NCBI RefSeq assembly: GCF_004310285.1
Contig: NZ_SISF01000026.1
Location: forward strand, 62,001-126,000
Source of the DNA: Agrobacterium cavarae
Lineage (GTDB): Bacteria > Pseudomonadota > Alphaproteobacteria > Rhizobiales > Rhizobiaceae
DNA: 64,000 nucleotides
Direction: 5' to 3'
Shown here: one piece after another, positions 4,516-35,768 of the stretch
Numbering within the stretch: position 1 is the stretch's first letter
Layout of the letters: every line of letters starts with the position of its first letter
Made by a program: the position numbers and the translations under genes
The notes under the pieces: generated by a model
What the model saw: the letters and a program-made list of their open reading frames with translations, nothing else
The model's database searches: none
Told to the model about the DNA's origin: nothing

Positions 4516-4573
4516 ACAGATTGACTGCCTCTCCAGAACTTTTATCTCCCGGGGCAGCCGATATTTATCGCTA

Positions 4574-5296: not shown

Positions 5297-5358
5297 GGGA
5301 AAATCACACGTAAAGTACTGAAACTGGTAATGGAGCAATGATCTCAGGACCTTTCGGA

Positions 5359-10870: not shown

Positions 10871-11607
10871 TGGCTCTCCCCGGTGATGACGGTTTCCTGA
10901 TCCCGGCGATACTCGGTCACTTGAAACCCGAGCGGGTTGTCGAAGCGCCAGTCGTTGCGCATCGGCTCGGAGGTGTATCTGAACCGGACGTTGGCGACCC
11001 AGTGTCTCGTCTCGGTCGAAGCCCCTCGGCTCGTTCGGGTGGTGGAAAAGCGGACGGCTGCCGTCTGCTCGTTGAGGAAGATGATGCTCTTCACGGCGAC
11101 CGAAACGATGGTGTCGGCGCCATAGAGCTTGACGGGGTTGTTCGGGTTGGCGCCCGAGAAGGTGTTGGCGAGATCGTCCGCCGCCTTGCCGGTCGAATAG
11201 AGCGAGGCGAGATCGAAATTGTCGCGCAGGCTCTTCGGGTCATAGGTTTCGCGGGCGCGCAGGAAGCGCACGATATTGGCGCGCGTCACCGCTTCGTTCT
11301 GGGTGAGATTGCCAGCTTCCCGGAGAGGCCGGCTCGCCTCGACGTAGCCGGTCGTCCGGTCAACCTCGAGCACGACGACATCGAAGGTTCTGAGCGGTAG
11401 CGTTGCCCACAGGAGCCCGACCATGGCGATCAGCGCCGCAGCAAGCAGGACGGCGACCGTCCGCCAAACCCCACGGGACGCGGCGACGGAACGATAGACC
11501 GATTTTTCCCAGCGCTCCCCTTCCTGATAATAGCGGGGATCAATTCCGGCGTCTGTTCTGGCGCGTTCCGCCGTCCCCATGGCGGCGATGTCATTTCCTG
11601 CCTGCAT
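10867..11607 (-). CDS. virB8: VirB8-type inner-membrane assembly factor
   Basis: 246 residues. One membrane span (about residues 47-67) follows a short cytoplasmic tail and the tract YYQEGERWEKSVYRSVAASR. The periplasmic NTF2-like VirB8 domain includes NEAVTRANIVRFLRARETYDPKSLRDNFDLASLYST, close to the family consensus. It nucleates the inner-membrane part of the type IV apparatus. It sits between virB6 and virB9, in the usual gene order. Confidence 0.94.
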   Translation of the reverse strand: MQAGNDIAAMGTAERARTDAGIDPRYYQEGERWEKSVYRSVAASRGVWRTVAVLLAAALIAMVGLLWATLPLRTFDVVVLEVDRTTGYVEASRPLREAGNLTQNEAVTRANIVRFLRARETYDPKSLRDNFDLASLYSTGKAADDLANTFSGANPNNPVKLYGADTIVSVAVKSIIFLNEQTAAVRFSTTRTSRGASTETRHWVANVRFRYTSEPMRNDWRFDNPLGFQVTEYRRDQETVITGESQ

Positions 11608-11626
11608 TCACCCTATTCCCCTGAAA

Positions 11627-12631
11627 CTACCGTCGGCCGTTGAGTGCGGCTGATGTCACCAATGCCCTGTCCGCGCTTCCGTCCGTGACGGTCCCGGTCC
11701 CTCCGGCCATCATCCTCGACAGGGCGTACCGACCGCCTCTGTAGGCGCCGCGCGCACCCACGATTCCGAAACGCCGTGCATTGAACAGCGCGAGGCTAGT
11801 GGCGGATTCGATGCGCGGGCCACCACCCGCGATCGCCGCGGCAAGGCCGACCACCTCCTTCAGGAGCAGCGTCGTCGCCGCGCACATGAACAGAAACGGC
11901 ATAACGGTGCTCAGGCTCGGCTCTCCCGCCTGCAGCGCGCTTACCGTATTGCCAAGCAGGCTGGTCATCAGGCCAAGCACGGTGTAGACGAGCACCGGCA
12001 GCAAGGCGTAGGTCGCAAGAGATCGGATCCAGCCGTCGACCACGCCGGACGTGACGTTGAACAGCGCGCAGCACATCACGATCGGGCCGATCCCCAAGAG
12101 AACGAACATCGTCATCTTGCCCATGATCAGGATGACGGCGGCCGTGACGCAGAGGATCAGCGTGAAGAGCAAAACACCGCCCGCCAGCAGATAGAGAAAC
12201 CAGCCGAAGACGCCACCTTGTGCGACCATAGATGAAGCGCCCTGCATCCCGGCATGCCAGATGTCGGAGAGCCCCTGCCCTATCGAGGCGCCGTTGGCCC
12301 CGCATCCCTGGCCGCCCGCCGCCTCGCAAACGACCGTTGCAACCGCATCCGGCGCTTGCACCAGCGGCGTGACGATCAGCGGCTGGTAGGTCGCCCAGGA
12401 AACGATCATGCTGTAGCAGAGGAAAACGCGGCCGAACTTCCAGACGAATGCGCCTGCCGTCATCGGCGCCCGGCCGAACAGCATCTCATAGCCCCACCAG
12501 ACGACGTAGACCGCAAGACCGGCCAGAAACAGTGGACCGAGATAGTTGGAGAGCGCCTGATACATGTTCTGGACCGCCGACGTGCCCATGGCGTCGACTT
12601 TCCCGAACAGGACGTCGAAGATGTCGTTCAT
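11627..12631 (-). CDS. virB6: VirB6/TrbL-type polytopic membrane protein
   Basis: 334 residues from the ATG at 12631, which has GGAGAAGG about nine bases upstream; the longer open frame has an arginine-rich unlikely N-terminus. Five to six hydrophobic segments are visible (for example LGPLFLAGLAVYVVWWGYEML, LLAGGVLLFTLILCVTAAVILIMGKMTMFVLLGIGPIVM, LLPVLVYTVLGLMTSLLG), matching TrbL/VirB6. It lines the inner-membrane channel that contacts transferred DNA. Next to virB8 and the lipoprotein gene as expected. Confidence 0.93.
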   Translation of the reverse strand: MNDIFDVLFGKVDAMGTSAVQNMYQALSNYLGPLFLAGLAVYVVWWGYEMLFGRAPMTAGAFVWKFGRVFLCYSMIVSWATYQPLIVTPLVQAPDAVATVVCEAAGGQGCGANGASIGQGLSDIWHAGMQGASSMVAQGGVFGWFLYLLAGGVLLFTLILCVTAAVILIMGKMTMFVLLGIGPIVMCCALFNVTSGVVDGWIRSLATYALLPVLVYTVLGLMTSLLGNTVSALQAGEPSLSTVMPFLFMCAATTLLLKEVVGLAAAIAGGGPRIESATSLALFNARRFGIVGARGAYRGGRYALSRMMAGGTGTVTDGSADRALVTSAALNGRR

Positions 12632-12641
12632 GACCTTCTCC

Positions 12642-12830
12642 TCAGAAGACGCTGACGCCGTTTTGGCGGATGAGCGGACCGCAAGGCGTCGACGCGGCAT
12701 AGGCCGACGAGAACGGGATTTCTGCCGTCTCCTCCGGCCCACAGGGCGCTTTCAGCTCCTTGTGACCGGCGCATCCGGAAGCGGTGAGCAACAGCAGGCT
12801 CAGCATGAGGATCGAGAGTGAACGCCGCAT
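12642..12830 (-). CDS. Small lipoprotein, VirB7-like
   Basis: 62 residues with a lipoprotein signal: a basic start, the hydrophobic run SILMLSLLLLTASG and a lipobox cysteine at about residue 20. The mature peptide has two further cysteines. Its place between virB5 and virB6 is where many VirB-type operons carry a small entry-exclusion or VirB7-like lipoprotein. VirB7 normally stabilises VirB9 at the outer membrane; a TrbK-type exclusion role is the alternative. Sequence is too short to decide. Confidence 0.75.
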   Translation of the reverse strand: MRRSLSILMLSLLLLTASGCAGHKELKAPCGPEETAEIPFSSAYAASTPCGPLIRQNGVSVF

Positions 12831-12833
12831 CCT

Positions 12834-13580
12834 TCATCGACCTCCCGTCAGGCTGACATTGCCGGGGTCATAGGCCATGAACTCAGCCGTGGCGGCCTGG
12901 GCGGCCAGCTCCTGCATCTGCTGGGCGTTGAGGGCTGCGTTACCGGCATTGACCGCGCCGACCAGTTCGTTGACGGTCTGTGCAGTTTGGGTCTGGACCT
13001 GCGAATTCTGATCGATCGAGCCTTTGATATCGGGCGCCGTGCCGATCTGGCCTTCGACAGCTTGGAATGCCTGTGAACGCTGCTGCGTGCTGGCCTGCAG
13101 GCCGGAGATCGTCGCGGTCAGCGCCGTCGCCGTGTTGACGAGTGCCTGATAGGACTTGTCGCCGCGCGTGAGCCTCGCCTTGTCGGTCTGGCCGGACAGC
13201 GTCTTGACCAGATTGAGCCCGTTCAGGAACTTTGTCGCGGCATTGCCATATGCGCCCAACTGGCCCCAGGCCATCTGCCCGGCCATAAGCGACGAGAAAT
13301 CCGGGGCCGCCCCGATGGAGAAGCCTCCACCCAGCGCTGCGCCAGCAATCTCGGCTGTCGAGCGATTTCCTGTCACGGCGGCAAGAGTCTTGTTGACCGT
13401 CTGCAGGATCTGGCCGTTGCTGTTCATGATCTCGGCCGTGTGCTCAGCCGTCTGCTTGGCTTGCGCCAGCGTCGCATCATCGATGACTGGAACCTGGGCA
13501 AAAGCTGGTGTGGTAAACACGATCGGAAAAAATGCAAACCGGATTGCCCATCGCCCGCAATGATTGGATAGCATCGACAT
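12834..13580 (-). CDS. virB5: VirB5-type minor pilin, second copy
   Basis: 248 residues with a signal peptide ending FTTPAFA. The mature protein is long, mostly helical and alanine/glutamine-rich, as in VirB5/TrbJ adhesin-like pilus tips (ATLAQAKQTAEHTAEIMNSN, NAQQMQELAAQAATAEFMAYDP). AAGGAGAG precedes the start, which directly follows the stop of the upstream VirB5-like gene. Both neighbours end with a similar YDP motif, so they look like tandem paralogues. It likely sits at the pilus tip. Confidence 0.85.
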   Translation of the reverse strand: MSMLSNHCGRWAIRFAFFPIVFTTPAFAQVPVIDDATLAQAKQTAEHTAEIMNSNGQILQTVNKTLAAVTGNRSTAEIAGAALGGGFSIGAAPDFSSLMAGQMAWGQLGAYGNAATKFLNGLNLVKTLSGQTDKARLTRGDKSYQALVNTATALTATISGLQASTQQRSQAFQAVEGQIGTAPDIKGSIDQNSQVQTQTAQTVNELVGAVNAGNAALNAQQMQELAAQAATAEFMAYDPGNVSLTGGR

Positions 13581-14228
13581 CTATTGTCTCTCCTTGTGCT
13601 CAGGCTCTGTCAGCATCGTCTTCGACGGATCGTAGGCCCCTGTTTTTGCTGTTGCGCTTGCCGCTGCGCTCATGTCGAGAAGGCGCTGATTGCGCAGCTG
13701 AACGGTGGTCGAAATGGCCTGAATGGCCTGGTTCCAGATCTGCGCGTTGGTGAGCCGCGTAATGCCGTTCTGCTCGAAGGCGCCCTTCAGGGTGTTCGCC
13801 TGCCCGATTGTCTGCGACTGCGCCGATAGCGTCTGTCCATTTGCCGAAATCGCAGAGGCGACGGCGGCCAGCGCACTGATCGCCTGACCGACATTCTTCG
13901 ACTTGATGGCCTGCACGGTGCTCGCAACAGCCATCAGCACCGCAAAATCATTGCCGCTGATCGTCGAGCCGGACAGCGGCGCACCCACAACAGTTCCACC
14001 GGCCACGGCGCGCATGCCGCCGGTGTCATTGCTTCCTGTGACGCTGCCATGGATGTCGCGGGTTGGTGATACGGTCGATTGTTTGAAGGTGCGGGCGCGC
14101 CGCATGCAGACGGCAGTGTTGGTCTCCGTGCCCGTCCGCTCGGCATCATTGACCGGCACTTGGGCGAAGGCGGGGGTGGCAGCAAGAGAAAGCAACGTCA
14201 CGACAAAAGAGAGAGCCACGAGACGCAT
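13581..14228 (-). CDS. VirB5-like exported protein, first copy
   Basis: 215 residues from the ATG at 14228, whose first base is inside the virB4 stop (TGATG). A signal peptide (VALSFVVTLLSLAATPAFA) leads into the same cleavage context as the next gene (AFAQVPV). The C-terminal half is helical and ends SATAKTGAYDPSKTM, resembling the FMAYDP tail of the following VirB5. It may form part of the pilus tip with it. Naming it VirB5-like rests on position and this resemblance. Confidence 0.75.
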   Translation of the reverse strand: MRLVALSFVVTLLSLAATPAFAQVPVNDAERTGTETNTAVCMRRARTFKQSTVSPTRDIHGSVTGSNDTGGMRAVAGGTVVGAPLSGSTISGNDFAVLMAVASTVQAIKSKNVGQAISALAAVASAISANGQTLSAQSQTIGQANTLKGAFEQNGITRLTNAQIWNQAIQAISTTVQLRNQRLLDMSAAASATAKTGAYDPSKTMLTEPEHKERQ

Positions 14229-16639
14229 CACCGCTCCTCCTTCCAGCCGCAGAAATAGGGAAGCCATCCTTCGGGAGCGTCGCCAAATCTCTCGCGAAGG
14301 CGTTCGCATTCAGCGACGGTTTCCGTGCGCCCGGACAGGACCTTGATGAACTCGGGGAGCTGTGAGAGATCGAGTTTCGCGATGACGCTATCGTGGTCGT
14401 GTTTCACCAAGAACTGTCGGCTGGTGGAGGATGTCGACTTCACCCAGTCGAATTCGGTTTCGGACAGGCCGAAGGCGCCGACATAGCTTTCGCGGTCCGC
14501 CTTCGGGTTCGGAAAGAAGAGCGTGGTCGGGCTCTGCTCCAGCAGGGTATGGGAAATCTTGGCCGTGGTGATATCGCGCGGCGACTGCGTGCCGAGCCCG
14601 ACGATCCCGTTCTTCTTGCGGATGGTCTTCAGCTGATCGTTCAGGAATGCGCCGGCCTTCTCGTCGCCGAGCAGTTTCCAGCCCTCGTCGATGAACAGCA
14701 TCATCGGACGCACACCGTCGAGCATGTCGCCGATCCGGTGGAAGATATATCCAAGCGCCGCAGTGCGAATATCGGGATCGTCGAGGAGCGCGGTCAGGTC
14801 GAAACCGAAGATACCACGGTCCGCATCCCACGCATCGACCGGATTATCGAACAGCCAGCCATGGGTGTCGCACCAGACCTCGAAGCGTGAGGCGAGATCG
14901 TCCCGGCCGGCAGCCTCTGCGCCACGCAGAAGATGGATCACGTCGCGAAACCGTCGCTCACGGAGCGGCACGGCAAAGATCTGCTCCACCGCCGTCGTCA
15001 GGATCCTGTCCTGCTCGGCCGAGAGCTTGTCGCCGTCGCTCCGCGGCCTGACGAGGAAGCTCAGCAGGTCATACAGGAAAGTCCGGCTTCCCGGTGTGTC
15101 CTCGATCTGAAGAGGATTGAAGCCGGTGGCGACACCGGGCTTCAGCACTTCGTATTGGCCACCACAGGCGCGGATGAAGATTTCTCCGCCCCTGTCCTTG
15201 TCGAACAGCGCGCAACGGGGTTGCGGGCTGGTGCGCATCGCCTGCGACAGAAGGAAGAGGAGACTGACGGTCTTGCCCGATCCGGTCGGCCCTGTGACAA
15301 TGAAATTGCCCACCTCCCCTTTGTGGAAGTTGAAGAAGTAGGGTGTCATCGAGGTGGTCTGGAGGAGCGCGATCGCCGGTCCCCATCGATTGCCGGTCGG
15401 GCGGCCGAGCGCGAAATTATGGCCGGAGGCCATGCCGCAGAAATTCCGGGACGAAATCAGCGCACGCCGTGCGATATAGCTGAAATTTCCCGGAAGCTGC
15501 GCCCAGAAGACCGGTTCGGCATTGAGATCCTCGCGCACCACGACGAGGCCGGCATTCTGCAATTCCTTGGTGATCGCCTGCGAGCAGGACTCGGTCTCGC
15601 GGATACTATCACCGAGCGCCATGACCGAGAGGTGGTGGTAGCCCATGACGGCGCGGCCGCTGACGAGCTCGTCCTTGGCAGTCGTAATCGCACTCTCCAG
15701 ACTGGTGCCGCGTTCGTCGGAAACGCTGATCTGGCGCTCGATCCTGTCCATCTCGGAAAGGATAGGAGCACGATCCTGAAGCGCGAAACTCTGCGTCAGG
15801 ACGAACTCGCCCGGAACTTTAAGAAGGCCATCGACCATGCCGGCAGCCGTGAAGGACGGATATTCGCGCACCGACAGCATCGCGCCAAAGCGCACGTCCG
15901 TCTCGGCGTTTCCGCGCATTTCCAGGAGGCGGCGGCCGAAGGTGATGCGCCGGGTGGGAAGATATTCGTTGAGCGGCATGCGCGGCAACAGCATCCAGAC
16001 CGGCATTGCGCCGTTCAGAAGCTGACCTAAAAATTCGAGGGGTTCGGAAAAGGCACTGCCGTCCCGCATGGCAACCGTCAGCAGGCGGGCGCCGTAGCCT
16101 TCCAGCCCTTTGACGATATTGGCGGCGTGATCGCGCAGTTCCTGGCGCGCTTCGAGATCGAGCGATCTTTCCGACACCCCGCCAGCCTTGCGAAACCGTG
16201 AGAAAACGCTGTCCGCCAGCCCCACCTTTCCCTGAAACCCACGCCGGATGAGGGTCAGATAGAGCTCGTTCGAATACATCCTGTTCTCAGACAGGGCATC
16301 CATGTAACGCTCGTTGAGCGCCTTGCAGAAATCGATGGAAAAGGAGCCCTTGATCGGTGGCAGAATGCGCCGGCGTATGATGTGAGAATAGACAGCGAAG
16401 CGGCTATCGGAGAGAGCGCGTAAAAGCGTGTTGCGGTTGGCAGCCTCGGCGTCGATGACCGCCTGATCGGCGGTCTGATGGCAGAAACCATCGAGCCGCA
16501 CGATCGAGAGCAGCATGCCGTCGCGGGTGCGCAGGGTCGCCTCATCCACATGACGCAAATAAGGAATGTGATGGGAAACCGGCTTTTCCCGCGCGATTTG
16601 CGAGCCGAACTTCAGGTCCTTGCGAACGGCATGCTGCAT
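14228..16639 (-). CDS. virB4: VirB4-type secretion ATPase
   Basis: 803 residues, full family length. Walker A GPTGSGKT is at about 450-457 and Walker B is MMLFIDEGWKLL, followed by the conserved QLKTIRKKNGIVGLGTQSPRDI segment. The N-terminal CagE/TrbE-like domain starts SHHIPYLRHVDEATLRTRDGMLLSIVRLDG. VirB4 drives pilus biogenesis and feeds VirB6/VirB8. It lies 12 bases after virB3, with TGATG overlap to the next gene. Confidence 0.95.
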   Translation of the reverse strand: MQHAVRKDLKFGSQIAREKPVSHHIPYLRHVDEATLRTRDGMLLSIVRLDGFCHQTADQAVIDAEAANRNTLLRALSDSRFAVYSHIIRRRILPPIKGSFSIDFCKALNERYMDALSENRMYSNELYLTLIRRGFQGKVGLADSVFSRFRKAGGVSERSLDLEARQELRDHAANIVKGLEGYGARLLTVAMRDGSAFSEPLEFLGQLLNGAMPVWMLLPRMPLNEYLPTRRITFGRRLLEMRGNAETDVRFGAMLSVREYPSFTAAGMVDGLLKVPGEFVLTQSFALQDRAPILSEMDRIERQISVSDERGTSLESAITTAKDELVSGRAVMGYHHLSVMALGDSIRETESCSQAITKELQNAGLVVVREDLNAEPVFWAQLPGNFSYIARRALISSRNFCGMASGHNFALGRPTGNRWGPAIALLQTTSMTPYFFNFHKGEVGNFIVTGPTGSGKTVSLLFLLSQAMRTSPQPRCALFDKDRGGEIFIRACGGQYEVLKPGVATGFNPLQIEDTPGSRTFLYDLLSFLVRPRSDGDKLSAEQDRILTTAVEQIFAVPLRERRFRDVIHLLRGAEAAGRDDLASRFEVWCDTHGWLFDNPVDAWDADRGIFGFDLTALLDDPDIRTAALGYIFHRIGDMLDGVRPMMLFIDEGWKLLGDEKAGAFLNDQLKTIRKKNGIVGLGTQSPRDITTAKISHTLLEQSPTTLFFPNPKADRESYVGAFGLSETEFDWVKSTSSTSRQFLVKHDHDSVIAKLDLSQLPEFIKVLSGRTETVAECERLRERFGDAPEGWLPYFCGWKEER

Positions 16640-21819: not shown

Positions 21820-22461
21820 TCAGGCAACGCATAAGTCTCGCATCTCACCAGAATGTCCCAGTAGAGGCTGATCGATCGCCCCAGTGGCGGCGATATTACT
21901 CCACATCTCCTCGTTGATCTCGAAAAGACCGGCATAGGTCATGACGCGTCCGATCCGGGTTGGAACACCGATGACATCGGCGGGACAGTTCGATGCCTTG
22001 AATATCCGTGCCATACGGGCGTCGTAGACAGAGACGATGTGGCTTAATCCCGCGCGAAGCCCAACCTCCACCAGACCGCAGAGGAGCTCCGTCGTCACCC
22101 GATGGATGCGCCCCTCCACGAGCCTTGCCGTGTCAGGCTCGATACAGAACCGCGAGCTCTCCCAGATGATGGGACTTTCCACGACCATGCCATCCGGAAG
22201 GAGGACTGAGAAAACGTCGCGCAGCATGTTGGGTCCGGTCGTGGGCAACAGCCGGACGCTTCCCTCCAAATGACCGGTCGTATTGTTCACCGACAGAATG
22301 TAGAGCGGGTCCGCGTCGTCAAAAACGTCGATCTCCTTGCCGTCCTCGACATGAACATCCCATTGAAGCCGGTCCTTGAATACGCGCGCTCTGAGCTTGA
22401 ACATCTCTTCGAGCAGAGAGGCGTAGTTGGGTCTGTTATGAGTTTCGACGATATGCAGCAT
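21820..22461 (-). CDS. Acyl-homoserine-lactone synthase (LuxI family)
   Basis: 213 residues. Family signatures are in place: MFKLRARVFKDRLQWDV (conserved Arg, Phe, Trp), EIDVFDDADPLYIL (two Asp), GSVRLLPTTGPNMLRDVF (Arg, Pro) and ESPIIWESSRFCIE (Glu, Ser, Arg). It makes an N-acyl-homoserine lactone from SAM and an acyl carrier protein. It is divergent in function but co-oriented with luxR, whose stop is 88 bases upstream. A strong palindrome sits where a lux box should be, so positive feedback is likely. Chain length cannot be told. Confidence 0.95.
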   Translation of the reverse strand: MLHIVETHNRPNYASLLEEMFKLRARVFKDRLQWDVHVEDGKEIDVFDDADPLYILSVNNTTGHLEGSVRLLPTTGPNMLRDVFSVLLPDGMVVESPIIWESSRFCIEPDTARLVEGRIHRVTTELLCGLVEVGLRAGLSHIVSVYDARMARIFKASNCPADVIGVPTRIGRVMTYAGLFEINEEMWSNIAATGAIDQPLLGHSGEMRDLCVA

Positions 22462-22528: not shown

Positions 22529-22550
22529 AACCCGGTCGTTCGACCGGGTT
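22529..22550 (-). promoter_or_regulatory. Candidate lux box of luxI
   Basis: Arms AACCCGGTCG and CGACCGGGTT form a perfect 10-base inverted repeat with a two-base centre. It ends 67 bases before the luxI ATG, and a GAATAT that may serve as -10 lies 18 bases further, so the palindrome would overlap the -35, as in LuxR-activated promoters. It also overlaps the luxR stop codon and might double as a weak terminator. Confidence 0.65.
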
Positions 22551-23287
22551 CAATGTGCAATCGCAAACAGATTATAGCTCATAGCTTTTGCAATCGCGTG
22601 CGTTGTATTCGACGCGTTGAGCTTAACCCTGGCGGTCTCGAGATAACAGGCGACGGTCTTGGCCGAAATCCCCATGATCTGGGCGGTGGACCAGTTACAC
22701 TTTCCCGCCGCTCGCCATTTGAGACATTCCAGCTCACGCGGGGCAAGCTTGGGCGCAGGCCTCTCTACGCCCCGAGCCTTCAGAATGCGCTGATGCAAAT
22801 GGAACGCCAGCATCTGAAAATCCCTTTCGAAGCGCTTCTGGGAGCCGCTCCAATCGACAAGGTTTTGGTCACTGGTGATTGTGAACAAAGCACGGTCGCC
22901 GTTTCGCCCGCGGATCGGTATGGTCAGGCCGCGCTTGCCGATACCAAACTCCGCCGCCTCCCCGAAGAAGCGCTTCAGTCGCGTAGTCCGCGCATCGTAT
23001 GCGCTCCACACAATCGGGAGCAAGCTCGAAAAGCCTTTAGAAATGACAGGATCGATATCGACAAAACTCTGGATTTTATAGTGAGCGACCCATTCGGACG
23101 AATAGGTCACGGCGAGAAGCGGTTCTTCTGATCCCTCGCCGGAAAGGTTCACACCGAAATAGGCTGCTGATTTGAGATCATACAGAGAGCAGACAGTCCG
23201 TAATAAGTCCGGGACGGATTCGAACGACGCGGTTTCGTCATCGAGAGAATCAACGACACGGTAAAATGCGCTTTCCAAATTGGGCAT
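22550..23287 (-). CDS. LuxR-family autoinducer-binding transcription regulator
   Basis: 245 residues. Autoinducer-binding pocket residues W-Y-D-P-W-G are kept (EWVAHYKIQSFVDIDP, IVWSAY, FGIGKRGL). The C-terminal HTH reads LAPRELECLKWRAAGKCNWSTAQIMGISAKTVACYLETARVKL. It is directly upstream of luxI on the same strand and is its probable receptor-activator. Together with the 4574-5296 regulator the plasmid has two LuxR proteins and one synthase. Confidence 0.94.
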   Translation of the reverse strand: MPNLESAFYRVVDSLDDETASFESVPDLLRTVCSLYDLKSAAYFGVNLSGEGSEEPLLAVTYSSEWVAHYKIQSFVDIDPVISKGFSSLLPIVWSAYDARTTRLKRFFGEAAEFGIGKRGLTIPIRGRNGDRALFTITSDQNLVDWSGSQKRFERDFQMLAFHLHQRILKARGVERPAPKLAPRELECLKWRAAGKCNWSTAQIMGISAKTVACYLETARVKLNASNTTHAIAKAMSYNLFAIAH

Positions 23288-26617: not shown

Positions 26618-29600
26618 TCAATGGCGCTGCCTCGGCTTCTGCTTTCGAGCCTGCGTCTGGCGGTTTGCCTCCTTCTCGGAGAGAAGCTCCTTTTGATCGA
26701 GGCGCTGACGCTCGATTTCAGGCGACTGAGCGGCATCTGCCGGGATCGGTTTGGTGGGGTTCTGTTCGATAGCCTTTTCGGCTCGAACAGCGGCTGAGGC
26801 TTCTGCTTTCGTCCGGTAGGCATGATCGTCGCCACCGCCATCGATCGGTCGTTCTCCGGTCTTTGCGGTGCGTTTTGCCTGCTTCACCTCACGAGCGGCC
26901 TCAGCCTCTGTTTTCTCCTTCACCGTTTGGAGCGCCATCCCGATTTCCGCGTCGGTCCGGCGGACAGCTGGCGCCGCTTCAGCGCCATCGACGAAGCCGA
27001 GCTGCTTGCGCTCGCGGGCGCGCTCTTTCTCCTGCCGCTCCTCGACCTTCGCGCGGGCTGCTGTGAGTTTCTCCTGAAGCTCGGGGTTGGACAGCCTGAA
27101 GCCATGCTCTGCGGCGAGTTCGACGGCGATCGCCTTGTCACGCTCGGAGCCATTGACAGCGACAATACCCCACTTTTCCGACGCCACCCGCATCGCCTCG
27201 AGGATCGAAGCGCGCTCACGATCTGTCGGCTTCACCTTATCGCCTGTATCGAGCGGCGTCTTTGGCCCGTCCGGCGTCTGGGTGGACGCCAGCTCGACTT
27301 TCGCACCCGCCTCTGGCTGGATCACTTGTTCCTCCCGCTTCTGTCGCGCTGCGGCGGCAGGCGTGAATGCCAGTACAGCGTCCCGAAGGTTGGGAGTCTG
27401 AGTCCGATCAAGATGCGCACCGCCAGCACCCTCGGCATCTCGCCGGTCTGTCTGCCGCGTCTGTGTCTGCGTCACGCCCGGAAGGACGCTTGCCTGCTCC
27501 GGACGTTCGCGCGCGATCCGATCCTGGGCGGCGGCAAGCTTCTCCTGGAGCTCCGGATTGGTCAGCTGGAAACCGTGTTCCGCGGCCAGTTCGACAGCCA
27601 GTATCTTGTAGCGATCGGGACCGCCGACACGCACGGCTCCCCACTTTTCCGCGCCGAGTTGGAGAGCTGCGAGCACGGCCTCACGATCCCGAGAGCGGCT
27701 GACCTCCACGCGATCGCCATGATCGGTAAACGCGACAGCGCCGATCCGACCCTCCGGCGCTCGCTGGCTGTAGCGGATATCCTCACCGCGCTTTTCTGCA
27801 ACGAAGCCGACAAAGCTCTGCGGGACAGGCTGAACCCAGGTTTCCCCTTCGATCCGGCCGCGTTTCGCCTCGATTGCGGTCAGAGCCTCGATCATCTTCG
27901 TCTGGCTCACATTCAGCTTCTGACGCAGGCCATCGAACTCCGCAAGCCGCTTTGGCGGCAGGTTCTTCGCCAAGGTATCGAGATTGGTCTCCATCTCGGC
28001 AAATGCCGAGGACATCGTCTCCAGGTCCGCCATGTCAGGCTCCTTTGCTGTCGTAAATTTATGGAAGTATCGTTCGGTCGCTGCCACCACACCGCTCAGG
28101 ACGGCCTCAAGGGTCCGCCGCTGGAAATGGCGTATGGTGTCCGGGGGACCCGCATGACCGGACTCTGCGATCTGCAACTGACCACTCCAGCCAGCAGCAC
28201 TTTCCACGGCATGTCTCAGCCCCTCCTGCCGTGTCGGGATGTGGACGACCTGCTGGCGGACAGCCTCGACGCGGCGACGAACCGTCTCGGAAGCATCACC
28301 CCTCTCAACGCGCCGAATATCCTTCATCTTGAAGCCCGGCGGATTGGCGCGTTCGAAGCGACTGACAGCGTCCATCGGGATGTTTCGTTCGCGTGCCTCC
28401 TGCGCCAGGGCCGCACGCCAGCGCCTGAGATCCTCGATCTTCGGATGCAGTTGCTTGCCGGTCTCCGACACCATCTTTACCACCGCATGGATATGGAGGT
28501 GATTGCGATCTTCGTGCAGCGTGAACAGAAAGCGATGGTCGGCAAACTCCCTGGCGAGCATGGCGCGGGCGGCGCCGACAAAAGCCTCCTTCGACGTCCC
28601 CGGCTTGGCGCTGAGCACGATATGGGCGACATCGCGCCGCTGCTGCGAGCGCAAATCCCGCTTCCAGTCCCGTGCCTCATCCAGAATCGAGTATTCGCCG
28701 CCGACCTCGTGCTGCCCAACAAAAGCGCCGGCCTTGTCCATTCGGACCGCGGTGATCGTGTGGCGGCCAGCCTTCTGCAGCTGGCCGAGCGCGCGTGCGA
28801 CGCCCTCGACCCCGTGACTGAAGCCATGCACGTCGACACGCGCCTCCGCCCCAAAAGCACCTTTCAACCGCGCTTCAAGGTCCCGCAGCGATTTGCGGTT
28901 ATCGAATATCCGGCCAGCTCGCGTCTCCCCCTCCAGGCGCCGCCGCGCGGCACTGATCACCAGCTCGACACGCCGGCCATCCCCGCCAACATCGCTTTGC
29001 CAGGCGATCCTGTGACCGGTAAGGGCGCCTTTCAGTCTCTCACCGACTACATCATGCGATAAATCTTCCGACGAAGGCAGGGTGAGTGATAGGCGCAGCA
29101 CGTCCTTTGAGGGCTTGCGGCCATCCTCTTCGGCCCAATCGTTCGCCAACGCCTTGATCCAGTCGCGCCCCTCGAGCAACTCGCCGGCTTCGTTCTCGAC
29201 GGGGAGTTCACCATCGCGGCTCTGATAGCCGAGCAACTTGCCAACCCGCGTCTTCCCAGCCGCAAAGCTGACGAGCTTGACCACGGCGGGCTGAGAGACT
29301 CGTGCAATGGACCGCCGGAAAACCGCAGGCCTATCCGACAGGGCAGTCGCACTTGCCCCCGCCTCATCCTGGCTCCTCTGTCCAACACGGCGTGAAGTGG
29401 CTTTCCGGCCACCGGAACCACTGCCGGGGCGCCGGCGCAACTCATCGTCGAACAGCACTGGCTGCGACGTTGGACCGGTCCAGGGGCGGCCACCCGATTG
29501 CGGTCGCCCCTCGTACGTCACTGGCGGACGCCCGCGCTTTCGGATCCCGTCGGCCTTGCCTGCATCGAGACCTGGCAGGCTTGCCAGAGGCCGCTTCTTG

Positions 29601-29647
29601 CGCTCCGCCTCATCCAGCAATGCCAGAAAGCCGCCGAGATCAAACAT
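26618..29647 (-). CDS. VirD2-class conjugative relaxase
   Basis: 1009 residues. The relaxase histidine triad is intact in HEDRNHLHIHAVVK (H383, H385, H387). A candidate catalytic tyrosine lies in KLLGYQSRDGE (Y141), matching the YxxRDG motif of MOBP relaxases. Between them residues 117-290 and 295-400 look like two related half-domains. The C-terminal 600 residues carry two similar segments (EKWGAVRV.. and EKWGIVAV..ELAAEHGF) like LPD-type plasmid domains. It cuts the oriT at 30145 and leads DNA to the coupling protein. The start overlaps the MobC-like gene by eight bases. Confidence 0.88.
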   Translation of the reverse strand: MFDLGGFLALLDEAERKKRPLASLPGLDAGKADGIRKRGRPPVTYEGRPQSGGRPWTGPTSQPVLFDDELRRRPGSGSGGRKATSRRVGQRSQDEAGASATALSDRPAVFRRSIARVSQPAVVKLVSFAAGKTRVGKLLGYQSRDGELPVENEAGELLEGRDWIKALANDWAEEDGRKPSKDVLRLSLTLPSSEDLSHDVVGERLKGALTGHRIAWQSDVGGDGRRVELVISAARRRLEGETRAGRIFDNRKSLRDLEARLKGAFGAEARVDVHGFSHGVEGVARALGQLQKAGRHTITAVRMDKAGAFVGQHEVGGEYSILDEARDWKRDLRSQQRRDVAHIVLSAKPGTSKEAFVGAARAMLAREFADHRFLFTLHEDRNHLHIHAVVKMVSETGKQLHPKIEDLRRWRAALAQEARERNIPMDAVSRFERANPPGFKMKDIRRVERGDASETVRRRVEAVRQQVVHIPTRQEGLRHAVESAAGWSGQLQIAESGHAGPPDTIRHFQRRTLEAVLSGVVAATERYFHKFTTAKEPDMADLETMSSAFAEMETNLDTLAKNLPPKRLAEFDGLRQKLNVSQTKMIEALTAIEAKRGRIEGETWVQPVPQSFVGFVAEKRGEDIRYSQRAPEGRIGAVAFTDHGDRVEVSRSRDREAVLAALQLGAEKWGAVRVGGPDRYKILAVELAAEHGFQLTNPELQEKLAAAQDRIARERPEQASVLPGVTQTQTRQTDRRDAEGAGGAHLDRTQTPNLRDAVLAFTPAAAARQKREEQVIQPEAGAKVELASTQTPDGPKTPLDTGDKVKPTDRERASILEAMRVASEKWGIVAVNGSERDKAIAVELAAEHGFRLSNPELQEKLTAARAKVEERQEKERARERKQLGFVDGAEAAPAVRRTDAEIGMALQTVKEKTEAEAAREVKQAKRTAKTGERPIDGGGDDHAYRTKAEASAAVRAEKAIEQNPTKPIPADAAQSPEIERQRLDQKELLSEKEANRQTQARKQKPRQRH

Positions 29648-30029
29648 CGCCGGTCACCCTCTGGCGGGCGACACGCTGCTCCTCATCGCACATCGCGCGG
29701 ATCTCGGATGCCTGGTCGTTTACCAGCCGTGCCAGACGGCCAATCCCATCGATCAACACTTCGAAGGCGGGATCGTCCTTGCCGCTCAAGCCGCGCGCAA
29801 TCCGGTCGAGGCTGCCACCAACCTGCCGGAGCTCCTCGGCATGGACGCGAACAGCGAAACCACCCTCCCCGTCCAGTGTCGCCCCAAAGCCACCGGCCCG
29901 GCGGGACAGCCGCCGCAGGACCTCGCTGACACTCAACCCGACATCCACGCTGAACGTCCGAAGAGCGAGAAACTCTGCCTCGCTCAGGCGCACATGCACG
30001 ACTTTCTGTCGGGTGGAATGCCTCGCCAT
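29640..30029 (-). CDS. MobC-like relaxosome accessory protein
   Basis: 129 residues. The start KVVHVRLSEAEFLALRTFSVDVGLSVSEVLRRLSRRA is a ribbon-helix-helix opening as in MobC/TraJ-like nicking accessory proteins, followed by a helical half LRQVGGSLDRIARGLSGKDDPAFEVLIDGIGRLARLV typical of MobC. It binds oriT next to nic and loads the relaxase. It is the first gene after the oriT on that side and overlaps the relaxase start. Confidence 0.85.
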   Translation of the reverse strand: MARHSTRQKVVHVRLSEAEFLALRTFSVDVGLSVSEVLRRLSRRAGGFGATLDGEGGFAVRVHAEELRQVGGSLDRIARGLSGKDDPAFEVLIDGIGRLARLVNDQASEIRAMCDEEQRVARQRVTGDV

Positions 30030-30115
30030 GATCCTTGCTCACCGCCTCTTCTTCTCTCCTGGTCGCGGCTTCCGCGACTGCCGGGAGGATCTTTTCGCCC
30101 GTTTCGGGCACACGC

Positions 30116-30148
30116 CAGTTTTGTATCACCAAAACTGCTATCCTGCCA
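30116..30148 (+). other. oriT: Origin of transfer, nic region
   Basis: An inverted repeat CAGTTTTG (30116-30123) / CAAAACTG (30130-30137) is followed after one base by TATCCTG (30139-30145) and then CCA. TATCCTG^C is the nick consensus of RP4-class relaxases, and TATCCTGCCA is the core of the T-DNA border. The nick would fall between 30145 and 30146, eight bases from the repeat, the same distance as in RP4. It lies 87 bases from the MobC-like gene. The nick itself is inferred. Confidence 0.85.
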
Positions 30149-30184
30149 TCCAAAAATAGAGAAAAATTCAATTATTTCCGTGGG

Positions 30185-30818: not shown

Positions 30819-31508
30819 ATGACGATCCTTGCTTTCGCTCATTCAAAGGGCGGGGTCGGCAAGTCGACCTTATGCCTGTTGATTGCCTCCGAACTCGCGC
30901 GCAGCGGAACACGCGTGCTCATCATCGATGCAGACCATCTGCAGCAATCCTGCCTGCAATGGACCGAGCGCTGCCGCGCAGCGAACTCTCTCGCGGCCAC
31001 CCTGTCAACGGAGCCTGCCTCCAAGCCCGACGACCTGAAACGGATTCTCAAGTCTACCAAAGCCGACATCGTTCTCATCGACGTCCAAGGCTCCATGCAC
31101 GATCTCCTTATCGCGGCGATCGTCGCGAGTGATCTCACGCTGGTCCCCTCCAAGGCGAACGTCATGGAGATGATAGAAACGGTGAAGCTCTTCGAATGGG
31201 CAACCATCCTGAAGCGCGCGCCGCTCCGCCTCGTACTCAATCGCGTCGACGGTATCGACACCAATACGACAGCGTTCCGGGATGCCGTCCGCATGATCCG
31301 CGAGCATAGACTTCCGGCCCTGCCGACCTTCGTCCGCGCCCGCAAGATCTACGAGCAATTCACCCGCGATGCCGGTTCGCTCCACCACATCGCCCGAGAC
31401 CCCTCCAAGGCGGAGCAGGTGGTCAAGGCACGGGCCAACATCCTTGGTCTTATCGCAGACATCACCGCGGCGATCGATCTCCCCGCATCAAAGGACGGCT
31501 CCGAATGA
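30819..31508 (+). CDS. virC1-like: VirC1/ParA-like ATPase
   Basis: 229 residues, nearly the same as VirC1 of Agrobacterium. The deviant Walker A is SKGGVGKST at the N-terminus, Walker A-prime LIIDADHLQQS and Walker B DIVLIDVQGS follow. VirC1 binds next to T-DNA borders and promotes relaxosome assembly and delivery to the cell pole; a ParA partition role is the alternative, but the plasmid already has RepA. It starts 670 bases from nic, with GTGAGGG upstream of the ATG, and overlaps the next gene. Confidence 0.8.
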   Translation: MTILAFAHSKGGVGKSTLCLLIASELARSGTRVLIIDADHLQQSCLQWTERCRAANSLAATLSTEPASKPDDLKRILKSTKADIVLIDVQGSMHDLLIAAIVASDLTLVPSKANVMEMIETVKLFEWATILKRAPLRLVLNRVDGIDTNTTAFRDAVRMIREHRLPALPTFVRARKIYEQFTRDAGSLHHIARDPSKAEQVVKARANILGLIADITAAIDLPASKDGSE

Positions 31509-31819
31509 CACAATTTCCTCCCCTTCCCAGAGGTCGCCGCAATCTCGATGACCTCGACGCCCTGATCGACGCTTCCATCGGCCAGTCCGAAGTCGGTCAG
31601 GACCAGCGTCATGGCAGCACGACCAGTGTCTCCCCGATACAAGTCGATCGTGAGCGGCCGCAAGCCGCATCGCACCCCGGCGCAGGCCCCGAACGGTTTC
31701 GTGTCATGATCGACCCCGCCGTGATCGTCGCGACCAAGCATCTCGCTCTTGAAAGAAAAGTCGCCCCCTCGGAGATCGTCGAGCTGGCGCTGCGGCAGTA
31801 TCTCAACCTCGAAACATGA
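31505..31819 (+). CDS. Ribbon-helix-helix protein, VirC2-like
   Basis: 104 residues, ATGA overlap with the VirC1-like gene. The C-terminal 40 residues (RFRVMIDPAVIVATKHLALERKVAPSEIVELALRQYL) form a ribbon-helix-helix; the N-terminus is low-complexity. VirC2 is a longer double RHH protein that works with VirC1 at border sequences. Here the order virC1-virC2 and proximity to a border-like nic support the same role, but only one RHH is visible. Confidence 0.65.
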   Translation: MTQFPPLPRGRRNLDDLDALIDASIGQSEVGQDQRHGSTTSVSPIQVDRERPQAASHPGAGPERFRVMIDPAVIVATKHLALERKVAPSEIVELALRQYLNLET

Positions 31820-32142: not shown

Positions 32143-33360
32143 TCACGATGCCGACCTTTGGCCGTCCGCGCCAGCAGCACGCAGCAGTGCCATCAGCATC
32201 GGCCCAAGTGAGAACTCACCTTGTTCCGCCCTTCGCGTCAGGTCGCGGAGATATCCACCGGCCGAGTTGATATGCCCTGCCCTTTCGAGGATACAGGCGA
32301 TGGCCGTGGCGGCATTTTCAGGCCCCATGACCTCGCAGGCAAGCTGATATGCCGACGGGCTCACCCCCAGCATCGATCGGACCACAACGGCTGCAGCCAT
32401 CAGGTCGCGCCACCGCTCCACTTTGCCGTCCGGACTGTAGTCGGCTATTTGCGGGCAAGCCCTCAAAACCATCCCCAATGGGAAAGCCGTCAGCGTCTCA
32501 CGCTTTGGCTTCTGATTTGTCGCAACGGTCACGCCCTGCTCTTTTTCGGAGCTAGGTTCAAGTTCATTAAGGGATTCGGGTTTTGAATTCTGTATGTGGC
32601 ACCCATCTTGGACATCATTGCCGTCTGTTTTTTGTGTTTTAAGCTGAATTTCCAATTGGTTGAGAATCTCCTCACGAAGGACGCTCATCTCGTTGAGAAC
32701 AATTTCGATATCTGTGCGGGAAGGATGTCGCGGCAGACGGGAAACCAGATCGACATAGATGGCCTCAATGGCTGTCCAGTCACCCTCAGCACCCTCCTCA
32801 ATGGCAGCGCTGATCAGCTTGCGGACGTCGCGGCGGCAGATGGTCAAGGCTTCTCTGGCGAGCTTGTAGCGGCGCCTTTCGGCGACCACATCCTGTGCGC
32901 GCTGAGCCAACTCCTCAGCTCTTACGAGGAGCGGAGAGAGATCGAAACCGTAGGCCGCCTCAATCTCCCCTGCCCCGTCCCGATGGACATAGCGTTTGCC
33001 ATTCGGGCTGTCGCGGCGCTGGATAAGGCCGGCCTCGACAAGCGCTGCTAGGTGACGACGCAGGGTCGTCCCCGCAATCCCATGGGCGCGGAGGGAGAGC
33101 TGTTGGTTCGACGGGAAGACCACAAGGCCCTGCTCTACCGACAGTTCCTTCTCAGGATAAAAGCTCAGCAATGCGTCAAGCACGGCTAGGGCACGATCCT
33201 GAAGCCCCAGAGTCTCTCTCGCCTCGCATGCGTCTCGGAAAACACGCCACTTATCGACAGGTCTGGCATCCTGATTTCGAGCCGCTTCGAACTGGCCTTT
33301 TACCAAGGCAAGCTTCGCTGGCCGCCGCCCGAACGGCGTCGTCACATTTCCACTTTGCAT
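32143..33360 (-). CDS. repC: RepC replication initiator
   Basis: 405 residues, the family's usual length. It starts with the RepC opening (TPFGRRPAKLALVKGQ) and contains FRDACEARETLGLQDRALAVLDALLSFYPE, SNQQLSLRAHGIAGTTLRRHLAALVEAGLIQRRDSPNGKRY, a winged helix, all strongly diagnostic. The C-terminus has the domain QIADYSPDGKVERWRDLMAAAVVVRSMLGVSPSAY. The replication origin of repABC plasmids lies inside repC. Expression is probably limited by the antisense RNA upstream. Confidence 0.97.
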   Translation of the reverse strand: MQSGNVTTPFGRRPAKLALVKGQFEAARNQDARPVDKWRVFRDACEARETLGLQDRALAVLDALLSFYPEKELSVEQGLVVFPSNQQLSLRAHGIAGTTLRRHLAALVEAGLIQRRDSPNGKRYVHRDGAGEIEAAYGFDLSPLLVRAEELAQRAQDVVAERRRYKLAREALTICRRDVRKLISAAIEEGAEGDWTAIEAIYVDLVSRLPRHPSRTDIEIVLNEMSVLREEILNQLEIQLKTQKTDGNDVQDGCHIQNSKPESLNELEPSSEKEQGVTVATNQKPKRETLTAFPLGMVLRACPQIADYSPDGKVERWRDLMAAAVVVRSMLGVSPSAYQLACEVMGPENAATAIACILERAGHINSAGGYLRDLTRRAEQGEFSLGPMLMALLRAAGADGQRSAS

Positions 33361-33413
33361 CTTCCTTCACCTTTCAAAAGGCAAAAGAAATTCGCTCACC
33401 AAAACGGCGCTAA

Positions 33414-33520
33414 ATGCTTGACAGCGATTCCGGGAAATGCGAATCTCGATCTTGCTAGAGAATACGAGAAGGGCTTCCACGGCTTAGGTCGATTGGGGGC
33501 CTTTTTCTTTTGCGGACTTG
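33414..33520 (+). ncRNA. Probable counter-transcribed RNA between repB and repC
   Basis: The repB-repC gap of repABC plasmids encodes an antisense RNA (ctRNA, incA) on the strand opposite to rep. Here the plus strand has TTGACA at 33418-33423 as a -35 candidate and, at about 33470-33506, a stem (AAGG-G-CTTCC pairing with GGGGGCCTT) followed by TTTTT, a Rho-independent terminator. The -10 is weak by eye (GAATCT). Ends are approximate. Confidence 0.6.
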
Positions 33521-33538
33521 TCTCCATTTTCGAATTAA

Positions 33539-33554
33539 ATTGTCAGATGACAAT
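33539..33554. promoter_or_regulatory. Palindrome after repB, candidate partition site (copy 1)
   Basis: ATTGTCA-GA-TGACAAT is a perfect 7+7 palindrome five bases after the repB stop. The same palindrome with one central change lies upstream of repA. RepB-binding parS sites of repABC plasmids are palindromes in these positions, but the usual GTT...AAC form is not matched. Confidence 0.5.
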
Positions 33555-33558
33555 TCGC

Positions 33559-34554
33559 TTAAGTGTCTGCCTTCGTGGACATTTCTTTTTCGAAGGCTGT
33601 AACGAGATCCGGCATGCGACTCGAAAGAAACGCAGCAAACTCTTTCGACGTCACCGCGAGTTTAGATGCGCGCGATCCGTGCTCAAACGATCCGAGAACC
33701 CGGCCATCTTCGGTCCGTATCGGCTCTTTTCGGTTCGGTTTTGTCGGGACGGGCTCCTGAACGCTTTTCCAGAGCCGCTCGAAACGAGTGTTAGAATCTG
33801 CTTCGACAAACTCAGGAGAACGAATTTCAGACTGCACCCGCTGCGCTACAGTGACGCTCTTCAAGCGTTCGACAATTGCGAGCCAACGTGGTCGGCCTAC
33901 CTTGGGTGCAGGGCCAATGGCCAAAATAATATCTTGACCCACACCTTCTGCTACCTGAAGCAAGCGAGACGTTTCGGGCTTATCGACAGACAAAGCTTTC
34001 GCGATCGTGTCGCGATCGAAACCGTGCGTTTCAAGCCGCTGGGCAAACAACGCCTTTTCGATAAAGCTCAGATCTACACGAGGACCGTTTTCTTGGCCTT
34101 GCGCCAAAACCACTTCTTCATCTGACAACGCTTTCACAACCGCCCTGACGGGGCGGCCTGTCAGGGCGGCGACGCGCAAGCGGCGATGACCGTATGCGGC
34201 TTGGTAACGTCCTGGATTAGAAGGATGCGGCCTCACAAGGATCGGAACCTGTTGACCGCTCTCTGAGATAGACGACACCAAGCGATCGAATTCTGGATCA
34301 TTCTGTTCCGCGATGCGATCTTGTACAAATGCGGCATCAACAAATGCCGGGTCGAGTTCGACGACTTTGTCACCTGCGGCGAGCACCTGCCGCAGCTCCT
34401 TGGCCGCTGCGGCCTCTCCACTTAGACGCTCCATGGATAGATTCATCGCACGAACCGCCCCACTTGGTTTGTGGGGCTGCGGTGCTACCTGGACACCACC
34501 TGTGCTTTGACCGGACTCACTGATCAAGGTTTTAAGGACATCCCTCGCCTTCAT
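33559..34554 (-). CDS. repB: RepB partition protein (ParB family)
   Basis: 331 residues. MKARDVLKTLISES opens the protein as in other RepB. The ParB nuclease-like box is QQVPILVRPHPSNPGRYQAAYGHRRLRVAALTGRPVRAVVK, followed by the helix-turn-helix LETHGFDRDTIAKALSVDKPETSRLLQVAEGV. It binds parS and works with RepA to segregate the plasmid. The ATG overlaps the repA stop (ATGA). Confidence 0.97.
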   Translation of the reverse strand: MKARDVLKTLISESGQSTGGVQVAPQPHKPSGAVRAMNLSMERLSGEAAAAKELRQVLAAGDKVVELDPAFVDAAFVQDRIAEQNDPEFDRLVSSISESGQQVPILVRPHPSNPGRYQAAYGHRRLRVAALTGRPVRAVVKALSDEEVVLAQGQENGPRVDLSFIEKALFAQRLETHGFDRDTIAKALSVDKPETSRLLQVAEGVGQDIILAIGPAPKVGRPRWLAIVERLKSVTVAQRVQSEIRSPEFVEADSNTRFERLWKSVQEPVPTKPNRKEPIRTEDGRVLGSFEHGSRASKLAVTSKEFAAFLSSRMPDLVTAFEKEMSTKADT

Positions 34555-35768
34555 GCTCTACTCCATGCATCGCGCACTAATGCTTCGACCTCAGCGTTGA
34601 CACTGTCCATCGCCTCGACAGCTCGATCATAGGTCTGCCGGTTCATCGTCTCCCGACCCGCCTCGTAGATCGTCTGCTTGGAAAGGCCGGCGTCCGAAAC
34701 AGCGGTCGATTTCACCATCATGGAGGTTAGGACGCGCTCACCAAAAATACTCCTGAGAAAAGCAACGATTTGCGCCTGCGGCCCATCATTCGGCTCATAG
34801 CGCGTGACCAGATAGCGCATCCAGTCGTAGTCGAGGTTCCCGCCTGCCTCTCTCACTACATTCAAAAGATCCGATGTCATCGACAGAAATTGGTTCATCG
34901 AAGCCACGTCCAACATTTGCGGGTGCACGGTGATCAGGACGGCCGTCGCGGCACAGAGGGCCGACAAGGTGAGAAACCCGAGCGTCGGAGGGCAATCGAT
35001 TACGACGACATCATAATTGCCTTGCACCTCCGTCAGTGCCGAACTGACACGCATGAAGAACATATCGGTATCGTCACCGTCTCGTGAGGCGAGAGCACGC
35101 GGGGTGTCGTGCTCAAACTCGTGAAGCTCTAAGTTACCGGGGATAAGATCCAAGCCTGAGAAATAGGTCTTCCTGACGATCTCTGTGACAGACCGTCGAT
35201 GCTCGTCGTATCGGATAGCACCATAAAGAGTCTGATTTTCATCGACATCGAATTCCGGCTGAAAGCCCAGCATCGCCGACATCGATGCCTGTGGATCCAA
35301 GTCCACCGCAAGCACGCGATAACCGCGCAGAGCTAAATATTGGGCGAGATGGATGGCAGTGGTCGTCTTCCCTGAGCCGCCTTTGAAATTCGTGACAGCG
35401 ATGACTTGTAGGTGGTCATTTTCACGACGACCAGGTAGGTAGGTTGGCTTCGTCCGTCCGAGAATTTGGCGGATCGTATGAACCTCGCTGAGCGAGAATG
35501 TTCTCTTGCCCGAAGCAGTCTTTTCTGAGGTGACCGCATCTTCCTGAGTGGCTATGTGCCTGACGTAACTGTCCGTGACGCCAAGAAGCTTTGCGGTCTC
35601 GCTGCTGCTGAACCGCCGAAGCGACTTTTTTGAGCTTGGAGAGAACAACCGCTCAAAAAGCTCTTGTAGCTTCGAGCTCAGGACGGCAGAATCTGTCCCA
35701 ATGGTTTCGTCGATCGAAACACGATTGCCTTTTTCCATTTTCACGGAAATTGCCGCCCTATTCGCCAT
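34551..35768 (-). CDS. repA: RepA partition ATPase (ParA family)
   Basis: 405 residues. An N-terminal helix-turn-helix (SSSETAKLLGVTDSYVRHIA) precedes the ParA ATPase: Walker A NFKGGSGKTTTAIHLAQYLALRG, A-prime VLAVDLDPQASMSAMLGF, Walker B VVIDCPPTLGFL. RepA segregates the plasmid with RepB and represses the repABC promoter. It is the first gene of the operon; the AT-rich region 35769-36000 should hold the promoter. Confidence 0.97.
   Translation of the reverse strand: MANRAAISVKMEKGNRVSIDETIGTDSAVLSSKLQELFERLFSPSSKKSLRRFSSSETAKLLGVTDSYVRHIATQEDAVTSEKTASGKRTFSLSEVHTIRQILGRTKPTYLPGRRENDHLQVIAVTNFKGGSGKTTTAIHLAQYLALRGYRVLAVDLDPQASMSAMLGFQPEFDVDENQTLYGAIRYDEHRRSVTEIVRKTYFSGLDLIPGNLELHEFEHDTPRALASRDGDDTDMFFMRVSSALTEVQGNYDVVVIDCPPTLGFLTLSALCAATAVLITVHPQMLDVASMNQFLSMTSDLLNVVREAGGNLDYDWMRYLVTRYEPNDGPQAQIVAFLRSIFGERVLTSMMVKSTAVSDAGLSKQTIYEAGRETMNRQTYDRAVEAMDSVNAEVEALVRDAWSRA

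Follow-up and report, generated by a model that had tools for sequence, protein, structure and literature searches.

The site at positions 30116–30148 of the window (the whole 64 000-nucleotide stretch analysed here) is very likely the oriT used by the conjugation system that a repABC plasmid itself encodes, a system with a Dtr of the rhizobial type IV (MOBP0, clade IVc), as judged from its sequence, its place and its relatives, and it belongs to an already known kind of oriT. Two arms on the + strand that are complementary at 8/8 positions, CAGTTTTG (30116–30123) and CAAAACTG (30130–30137), both read directly in the sequence, enclose a loop of 6 bases. A single base, C30138, separates the right arm from the nic core TATCCTG^CCA (+ strand, 30139–30148; i.e. 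TATCCTG at 30139–30145 and CCA at 30146–30148), which was assigned from the MOBP consensus and from the relatives. From the right arm to the predicted nick, 30145^30146 on the + strand, there are 8 bases, the same distance as from the repeat to the nick in the RP4 oriT. The original prediction, which named the repeat, the eight-base spacing, the core and their coordinates, was exact to the base.

The site thus has an inverted repeat followed by a (C/T)ATCCTG(C/T) core. This core is the MOBP nic consensus, and both TraI and VirD2 require ATCCTG in vitro, according to the accessible parts of PMC3772185. The same parts of that article describe a VirD2-like relaxase of H. pylori, with similar motifs and outside the MOBP clades, which cuts TATCCTGC and does so at an equal position in tfs4 and RP4 oligonucleotides; this protein also interacts with a VirC1-like ATPase, so that a ParA-type protein assisting at an oriT would not be without precedent.

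The site lies in the gap between divergent parA-like and mobC–relaxase genes. On the − strand, mobC (29640–30029) encodes a candidate relaxosome accessory protein of the NikA/VirD1 kind, assigned by profile matches and hhalign; its product scores 24.9 bits with a NikA-like model (cut-off 27) and 20.9 bits with the VirD1 model (E 2.8e-4, cut-off 173). It is followed by the gene for a MOBP relaxase of 1009 aa (26618–29647, − strand), identified by Pfam matches, invariant residues and its place in a tree, with an N-terminal nuclease domain of the MobA/VirD2 type (PF03432, 56.1 bits) and an LPD7 domain (108.2 bits). The relaxase carries the motif HEDRNHLHIH, and a comparison of invariant residues points to Y141 as the presumed nicking tyrosine. 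Divergent from mobC, on the + strand, are the parA-like gene of a VirC1-type ATPase (30819–31508; profiles, search and tree) and a partner gene of 104 aa (31505–31819), which is not virC2 and was found at 20 other loci at E 1e-3.

Beyond these genes lies the repABC replication and partition region (32143–35768, − strand), with repC at 32143–33360, repB at 33559–34554 and repA at 34551–35768. VirB-type secretion genes (7794–16639, − strand) gave matches to VirB4, VirB5-like, VirB6, VirB8, VirB9, VirB10 and VirB11, in a search that covered VirB4–VirB6 and VirB8–VirB11. A coupling protein of the VirD4/TraG type is encoded at 5359–7809 (− strand; profile match) and weakly resembles, in its C-terminal part, a BID-type domain of Bartonella (26.8 bits, below the cut-off of 29.5). 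The stretch from the channel genes to the relaxase gene contains a LuxI/TraI-like (21820–22461) and a LuxR/TraR-like gene (22550–23287), from which quorum control of transfer seems plausible. The window belongs to a contig of 176 kb (C33) in a genome of 5.02 Mb. Among the listed matches with a named source, the relaxases closest to that of the window come from Xaviernesmea; in Xaviernesmea rhizosphaerae MH17 this relaxase family is represented by two loci (L016 and L017), on separate contigs.

With the relaxase as query, tblastn matched 722 plasmid records, of which 20 reach a coverage of at least 80 %, and the comparison rests on 93 related loci, i.e. 14 plasmids and 79 loci on genome contigs (the best of 90). 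In a span from 700 bases upstream of the MobC frame to 150 bases inside it, TATCCTG was found in 90/93 loci, 87 times as TATCCTGCCA and once each with the ending CCC, CCG or CCT. The loci with no exact TATCCTG are L012, where TTTCCTGCCT follows a repeat of 10 that has one mismatch, L056, with TATTCTGCCA, and L026, where no core was found in that span. Three further TATCCTGATC sites some 600 bases upstream (L048, L051 and L057), probably inside the ParA frame, were not counted; the main site is also present at these loci. Besides L012 and L056, variant nic cores occur in L053 (TATCCTGCCC), L061 (TATCCTGCCG) and L080 (TATCCTGCCT), and these five loci offer natural tests of core specificity. Outside the Ti plasmids, nine plasmids of the wider family hold TGGCAGGATA in exactly one copy each, at the oriT place. 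The gene order is kept as well: a divergent ParA/VirC1 gene lies within 1300 bases at 87 of the 106 loci with a MobC/VirD1 gene, and none was seen within this distance at the other 19, of which 12 are Methylocystis-type; in one of the latter type (L010), a gene sits between ParA and MobC.

Many loci are near-copies, and the 91 sites, including that of the window, reduce to 60 unique sequences of 38 bases. Over these, the pairing of the repeat was 0.71 in register versus 0.21–0.49 in registers slid by no more than 7 bases. Six or more pairs in succession, without a break, were present in 85 % of the 60 sites, as compared with 1.3 % on average and 6.7 % at most in shuffled DNA; nine of the 60 have pair runs under 6. 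Two or more Watson–Crick types were found at 9/9 pairs, but slid registers reach up to 8/9, so strict covariation is only weakly tested. The repeat axis of the window is one base off that of most of the family. A repeat which persists with changing bases beside a constant core is, as far as sequences can tell, the pattern of an oriT. In view of its place, this core and the varying arms of the repeat, the original prediction that the site is an oriT of the MOBP/RP4 kind is very probably correct.

It could be argued that the palindrome instead controls the divergent mobC and parA genes, as an operator or as part of a promoter, the nic-like bases being incidental. It is located around 90–120 bases ahead of mobC, between divergent genes, which is a common place for operators; we nevertheless consider this reading very improbable, since the arms differ among relatives while the adjoining TATCCTGCCA is constant, contrary to a single conserved operator, and since the core trails the repeat at a spacing that hardly varies. 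The two roles do not exclude each other.

Chance resemblance must be weighed as well. The ten-base core alone is not beyond chance in its own genome, where 8 copies were counted in 5.02 Mb, against 2 for a reversed-pattern control and about 9.6 expected (2L/4^10). The whole motif (31 bases, 6 of them free), in contrast, occurs a single time in the window at up to 3 mismatches, and had 0 matches in 100 shuffles at the same tolerance. Of the other seven genome copies of the core, six are preceded by perfect arms of no more than 4 bases. The seventh (L116, on contig C32; L144 2367–2400) has TGGCAGGATA alongside a 7-base inverted repeat with a loop of 2, and sits within a reading frame of 577 aa, at its end; this frame weakly matches a peptidase. 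In the two frames adjoining that copy, scanned out of 5 kb, no MobC or relaxase was seen, and the genome gave no second match to the relaxase of the window. Lying inside a reading frame, and judged by these two nearest frames, the L116 copy was taken as a chance occurrence rather than as a second oriT, which is not to say that it is disproved. It is because of its place and conservation that the site in the window stands above chance level; that it, too, is a chance resemblance has a negligible probability and is refuted by the conservation of the core.

As a single strand, the stretch 30090–30150 has a folding energy of −11.1 kcal/mol (z −4.5), a value that includes a second, G+C hairpin, GCCCG-TTT-CGGGC (30097–30109, + strand), upstream of the oriT repeat. 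This small hairpin may belong to the mobC leader or to the oriT itself. Of 21 close relatives, 20 have a short inverted repeat of G+C near its position; in three of the 20 the register or the bases differ.

For the observed sequence, gene layout and conserved repeat, MOBP systems suggest how transfer would proceed, and protein binding, nick position, direction and transfer itself are modelled here on those systems. MobC would bind the inverted repeat and open the DNA, with the right arm CAAAACTG as the presumed binding site, by analogy with TraJ of RP4. The tyrosine of the relaxase would then cut the + strand between G30145 and C30146 and remain on the 5′ end, and the coupling protein and the VirB-type channel would carry the strand into the recipient. 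With the 5′ end at C30146 leading, the parA side would enter first, and mobC, the relaxase gene and the channel genes last.

The assignment to clade IVc rests on the grouping of the relaxase, on a parA divergent from mobC–relaxase and on the presence of a VirB-type channel with a coupling protein. The available parts of PMC10410297 describe 'tumorigenes' Ti plasmids whose traA/mobC/parA genes, together with avhB, make up a type IV system, MOBP0, of a new clade IVc, and state that pAtK84c carries a type IV system. In our set, pTi6.2 is L007, pTiK1_93 is L008 and pAtK84c is L004. All three share with the window the order parA ← → mobC–relaxase and the motif at an equivalent place, and their relaxases have 49.8–53.0 % identity to that of the window (tblastn); they differ in plasmid and host, and, as noted above, in most of the family the repeat axis is one base away from that of the window. 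In a tree of 50 relaxases, which does not hold L004, L007, L012, L034 and L039, the window relaxase falls into a 12-row clade (99/100) with L008, within a 35-row group (100/99) that includes MobZ-like rows. The word oriT has zero occurrences in the text of PMC10410297.

A second set of relatives is formed by the MobZ-like systems. SM11 and RU11/001 have a Dtr resembling that of pSmeLPU88b, whose MobZ and its relatives are of type IVb, according to the accessible part of PMC13274422. Their relaxases show 59.7 % identity to a MobZ-like row of our tree (L066). Work by Giusti in 2012 reportedly located a functional oriT of pSmeLPU88b between parA and mobC. The order parA–mobC–relaxase of the window recurs in the GR4 locus L138, and both L138 and the SM11 locus L137, which is unannotated, have TATCCTG upstream, behind a repeat-like stretch. 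Their cores are different, i.e. TATCCTGCCT in L137 and TATCCTGCCC in L138, ending CCT or CCC and not CCA, and the MobZ-like rows form a sister branch with GG(K/R)RPH where the window has HEDRNH. The oriT of RP4 (MOBP11) has in common with the window the ATCCTG core, a 5′ repeat and a small accessory DNA-binding protein; it differs in the relaxase subfamily, in the C after CC and in its longer repeat (16 bp, as given in the accessible parts of PMC3772185).

As an oriT the site is ordinary for its class, and its value lies in the clade IVc prediction and in a pointer to another group of plasmids, those with VirC–VirD systems. The former amounts to an oriT predicted to the base for a large family of rhizobial plasmids, including some Ti plasmids with T-DNA borders, and through it mobilisable plasmids may become recognisable by sequence.

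The latter follows from a comparison with T-DNA borders. The ten bases of the core are, as originally predicted, identical to the corresponding part of the border (TGGCAGGATA); the resemblance of oriT and border has long been known, going by the title of Cook and Farrand 1992, and the ten shared bases are the generic MOBP nic core. One could go further and see in the site an ancestor-like T-DNA border, and in the adjoining relaxosome the closest bacterial model of VirD1, VirD2, VirC1 and VirC2 on borders, which we regard as distinctly improbable. The divergent layout does resemble virC/virD, and TATCCTG^CCA is shared with the border along with VirD1-like and VirC1-like proteins. MobC is a relative of VirD1, the hhalign comparison of the MobC set of the family with 10 VirD1-type proteins (two Ti-type, eight Roseobacter-type) giving 97.9 %, and ParA resembles VirC1 (E 2e-11, 26 % identity over 130 residues), reaching 37.2 bits with PF07015 (cut-off 24) versus 97.8 bits with ParA_partition, where the cut-off of 180 is not reached.

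Against this stands, first, the border itself. The site matches 10/13 bases of the 13-base border core TGGCAGGATATAT; the scores against ATATATCCTGCCA are 10 for the site and equally 10 for RP4, 9 and 9 for S. meliloti and 8 for tfs4, and within the window family they are 9 (3 loci), 10 (82 loci) and 11 (5 loci). In contrast to a border, the site has no ATA before TATCC, no TGTAAA block and no copy to pair with, the ten-base sequence occurring once on contig C33, while none of the seven other genome copies continues as a border.

Second, the proteins group elsewhere. VirD2 (171 residues compared) and the window relaxase share 34 % identity over 62 residues, whereas the next relatives of VirD2, after those on vir-bearing Rhizobiaceae plasmids, are relaxases of the Roseobacter group with 40–41 % (in a spread selection of 60 out of 564 plasmid records). 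In the 50-row tree VirD2 and the Roseobacter-group relaxases form a 14-row group (100/99), separated from the side of the window by a branch of 1.85, which is long and has full support. Constraining Ti VirD2 to group with L131, the window family and the Methylocystis/Microvirga kin, with the MobZ-like rows opposite, was rejected (−110 log units, AU p 5e-101), in a test whose group was chosen after an earlier tree, in which VirD2 fills 44 % of the columns and branches are long, so that the exact p is unreliable. On the plasmid-record search, the pairwise identity and the tree, the window relaxase was ruled out as the nearest kin of VirD2. Likewise, Ti VirC1 clusters with the Roseobacter-type VirC1 (99/99), apart from the ParA of the window, in a tree that has one very long outgroup row and is without 8 wanted rows which have no divergent ParA.

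Third, the claim of VirC-like genes beside the site held for the ParA/VirC1-type ATPase and failed for VirC2. The partner gene had no match in Pfam, and hhalign of 18 partner genes against 8 VirC2-type proteins gave 0.8 %, which rules it out as virC2; a search of the genome at E 1 gave no VirC2 either. Taken together, a border-core score no higher than that of RP4, a relaxase far from VirD2 and the lack of VirC2 speak against the proposal that this site is a good model for the origin of T-DNA transfer, and the reading as a clade IVc oriT is preferred.

Two of the Ti plasmids hold both kinds of site. TGGCAGGATA occurs four times in pTi6.2 and six times in pTiK1_93, with one copy at the oriT in each; of the other eight copies five continue as a border or nearly so, while those in L103 and L107 have the core without the TGTAAA block and that in L105 is not border-like. 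L007 and L008 thus carry a clade IVc oriT plus T-DNA borders that share ten bases with it, and cross-cutting of either by the relaxase of the other may be possible. The ten-base pattern recovers the borders of both Ti plasmids; a 25-base border pattern with up to 2 mismatches, whose spacing does not fit the borders of either, gave no match in 11 plasmids. A relic oriT in the virC–virD gap of Ti plasmids was not accepted: GCAGGATA precedes virC1 in one of three gaps (present in L100, absent in L098 and L099) and adjoins AAGGA, which resembles a ribosome-binding site.

The mostly marine VirC–VirD plasmids are a better model of the border than the window; they combine the true virC2–virC1/virD1–virD2 order with an oriT-like site in between. 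Among the proteins examined, and leaving aside those on vir-bearing Rhizobiaceae plasmids, theirs come closest to the proteins of Ti plasmids. The Ti order partner–VirC1 ← → VirD1–relaxase was found in the Roseobacter-type loci L118, L119, L127–L130 and L132, with VirD4 next in L118, L119 and L128–L130; the relaxase of L127 is cut short by insertion elements, and the stretch of L132 is without an annotated VirD4. NCBI names the partner VirC2 in L127, L130 and L132, and the Pfam VirC2 model is above its cut-off only in L127 and L132 (28.5 and 30.5 bits), weak in L119, L128 and L130, and absent in L118 and L129. Regardless, hhalign of Ti-type VirC2 (L100 and L131) against six Roseobacter-type partners gave 99.1 %.

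As in the window, the site of these Roseobacter, Acuticoccus and Jiella systems lies between a divergent VirC1-type ATPase and a pair of accessory protein and relaxase; they differ in their core, ATATATCCTGC[CT], and in their VirC2-like partner. In L118, L119, L127–L130, L132 and L133 the gap between VirC1 and VirD1 contains a repeat-like stretch, e.g. AAAAGT-TCT-ACTTTT, with arms judged by eye, and then this core. Border-core matches in eight of the nine VirC–VirD loci are 11/13 (one locus), 12/13 (six) and 13/13 (L133). The L133 site, TGGCAGGATATATGTAAAAG, agrees with the border core at all 13 bases, its repeat arm GTAAAA recalls the TGTAAA block of the border, and the 75 kb contig has matches to VirB8–VirB11, VirD4, VirD2, VirD1, VirC1 and VirC2, with the core present once. 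Per VirC–VirD plasmid, GCAGGATATA occurs once in six of eight, twice in one and not at all in that of L131. This last locus (A. vitis pRvVAR0630c, 1906–5933) has the order VirC2–VirC1/VirD1–relaxase, a VirC2 match of 152.5 bits and the VirC1 closest to Ti VirC1, but no nic core was found in its VirC1–VirD1 gap, which counts against a simple rule. The set is small, with 19 records found and 8 taken, the remainder being mostly near-copies.

It is therefore tempting to speculate, although we would give this somewhat less than an equal chance of being correct, that the borders descend from the oriT of a conjugative plasmid with a full VirC2–VirC1/VirD1–VirD2 relaxosome, now found mostly in marine Alphaproteobacteria, and that the system of the window is a cousin and not the source. 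If so, the border would be a VirC–VirD oriT moved out of the virC–virD gap and stripped of its repeat, and a preference of VirD2 and the Roseobacter-type enzyme, unlike the window enzyme, for ATATATCCTG would favour this descent. The question of T-DNA origin is thereby redirected, from ten shared bases that are generic to the VirC–VirD plasmids as a testable bacterial model. We found no published description of the oriTs of these plasmids, in a search with most of the subscription literature outside its scope, and the main text of PMC4886583, PMC5613091 and PMC11481893, as far as accessible, mentions neither oriT nor VirC.

Roseobacter-type oriTs had 0 matches in viral contigs, and TATCCTG was not found in the stretches examined at three loci with other VirD2-like relaxases (L120, L134 and L136). 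Further loci of this kind have TATCCTGCC upstream (L121 and L135) or AATCCTGCCC (L122). Class-wide, the Roseobacter-type relaxase was present in 4/385 genomes at E 1e-10, and in the family of G148 in one of 17.
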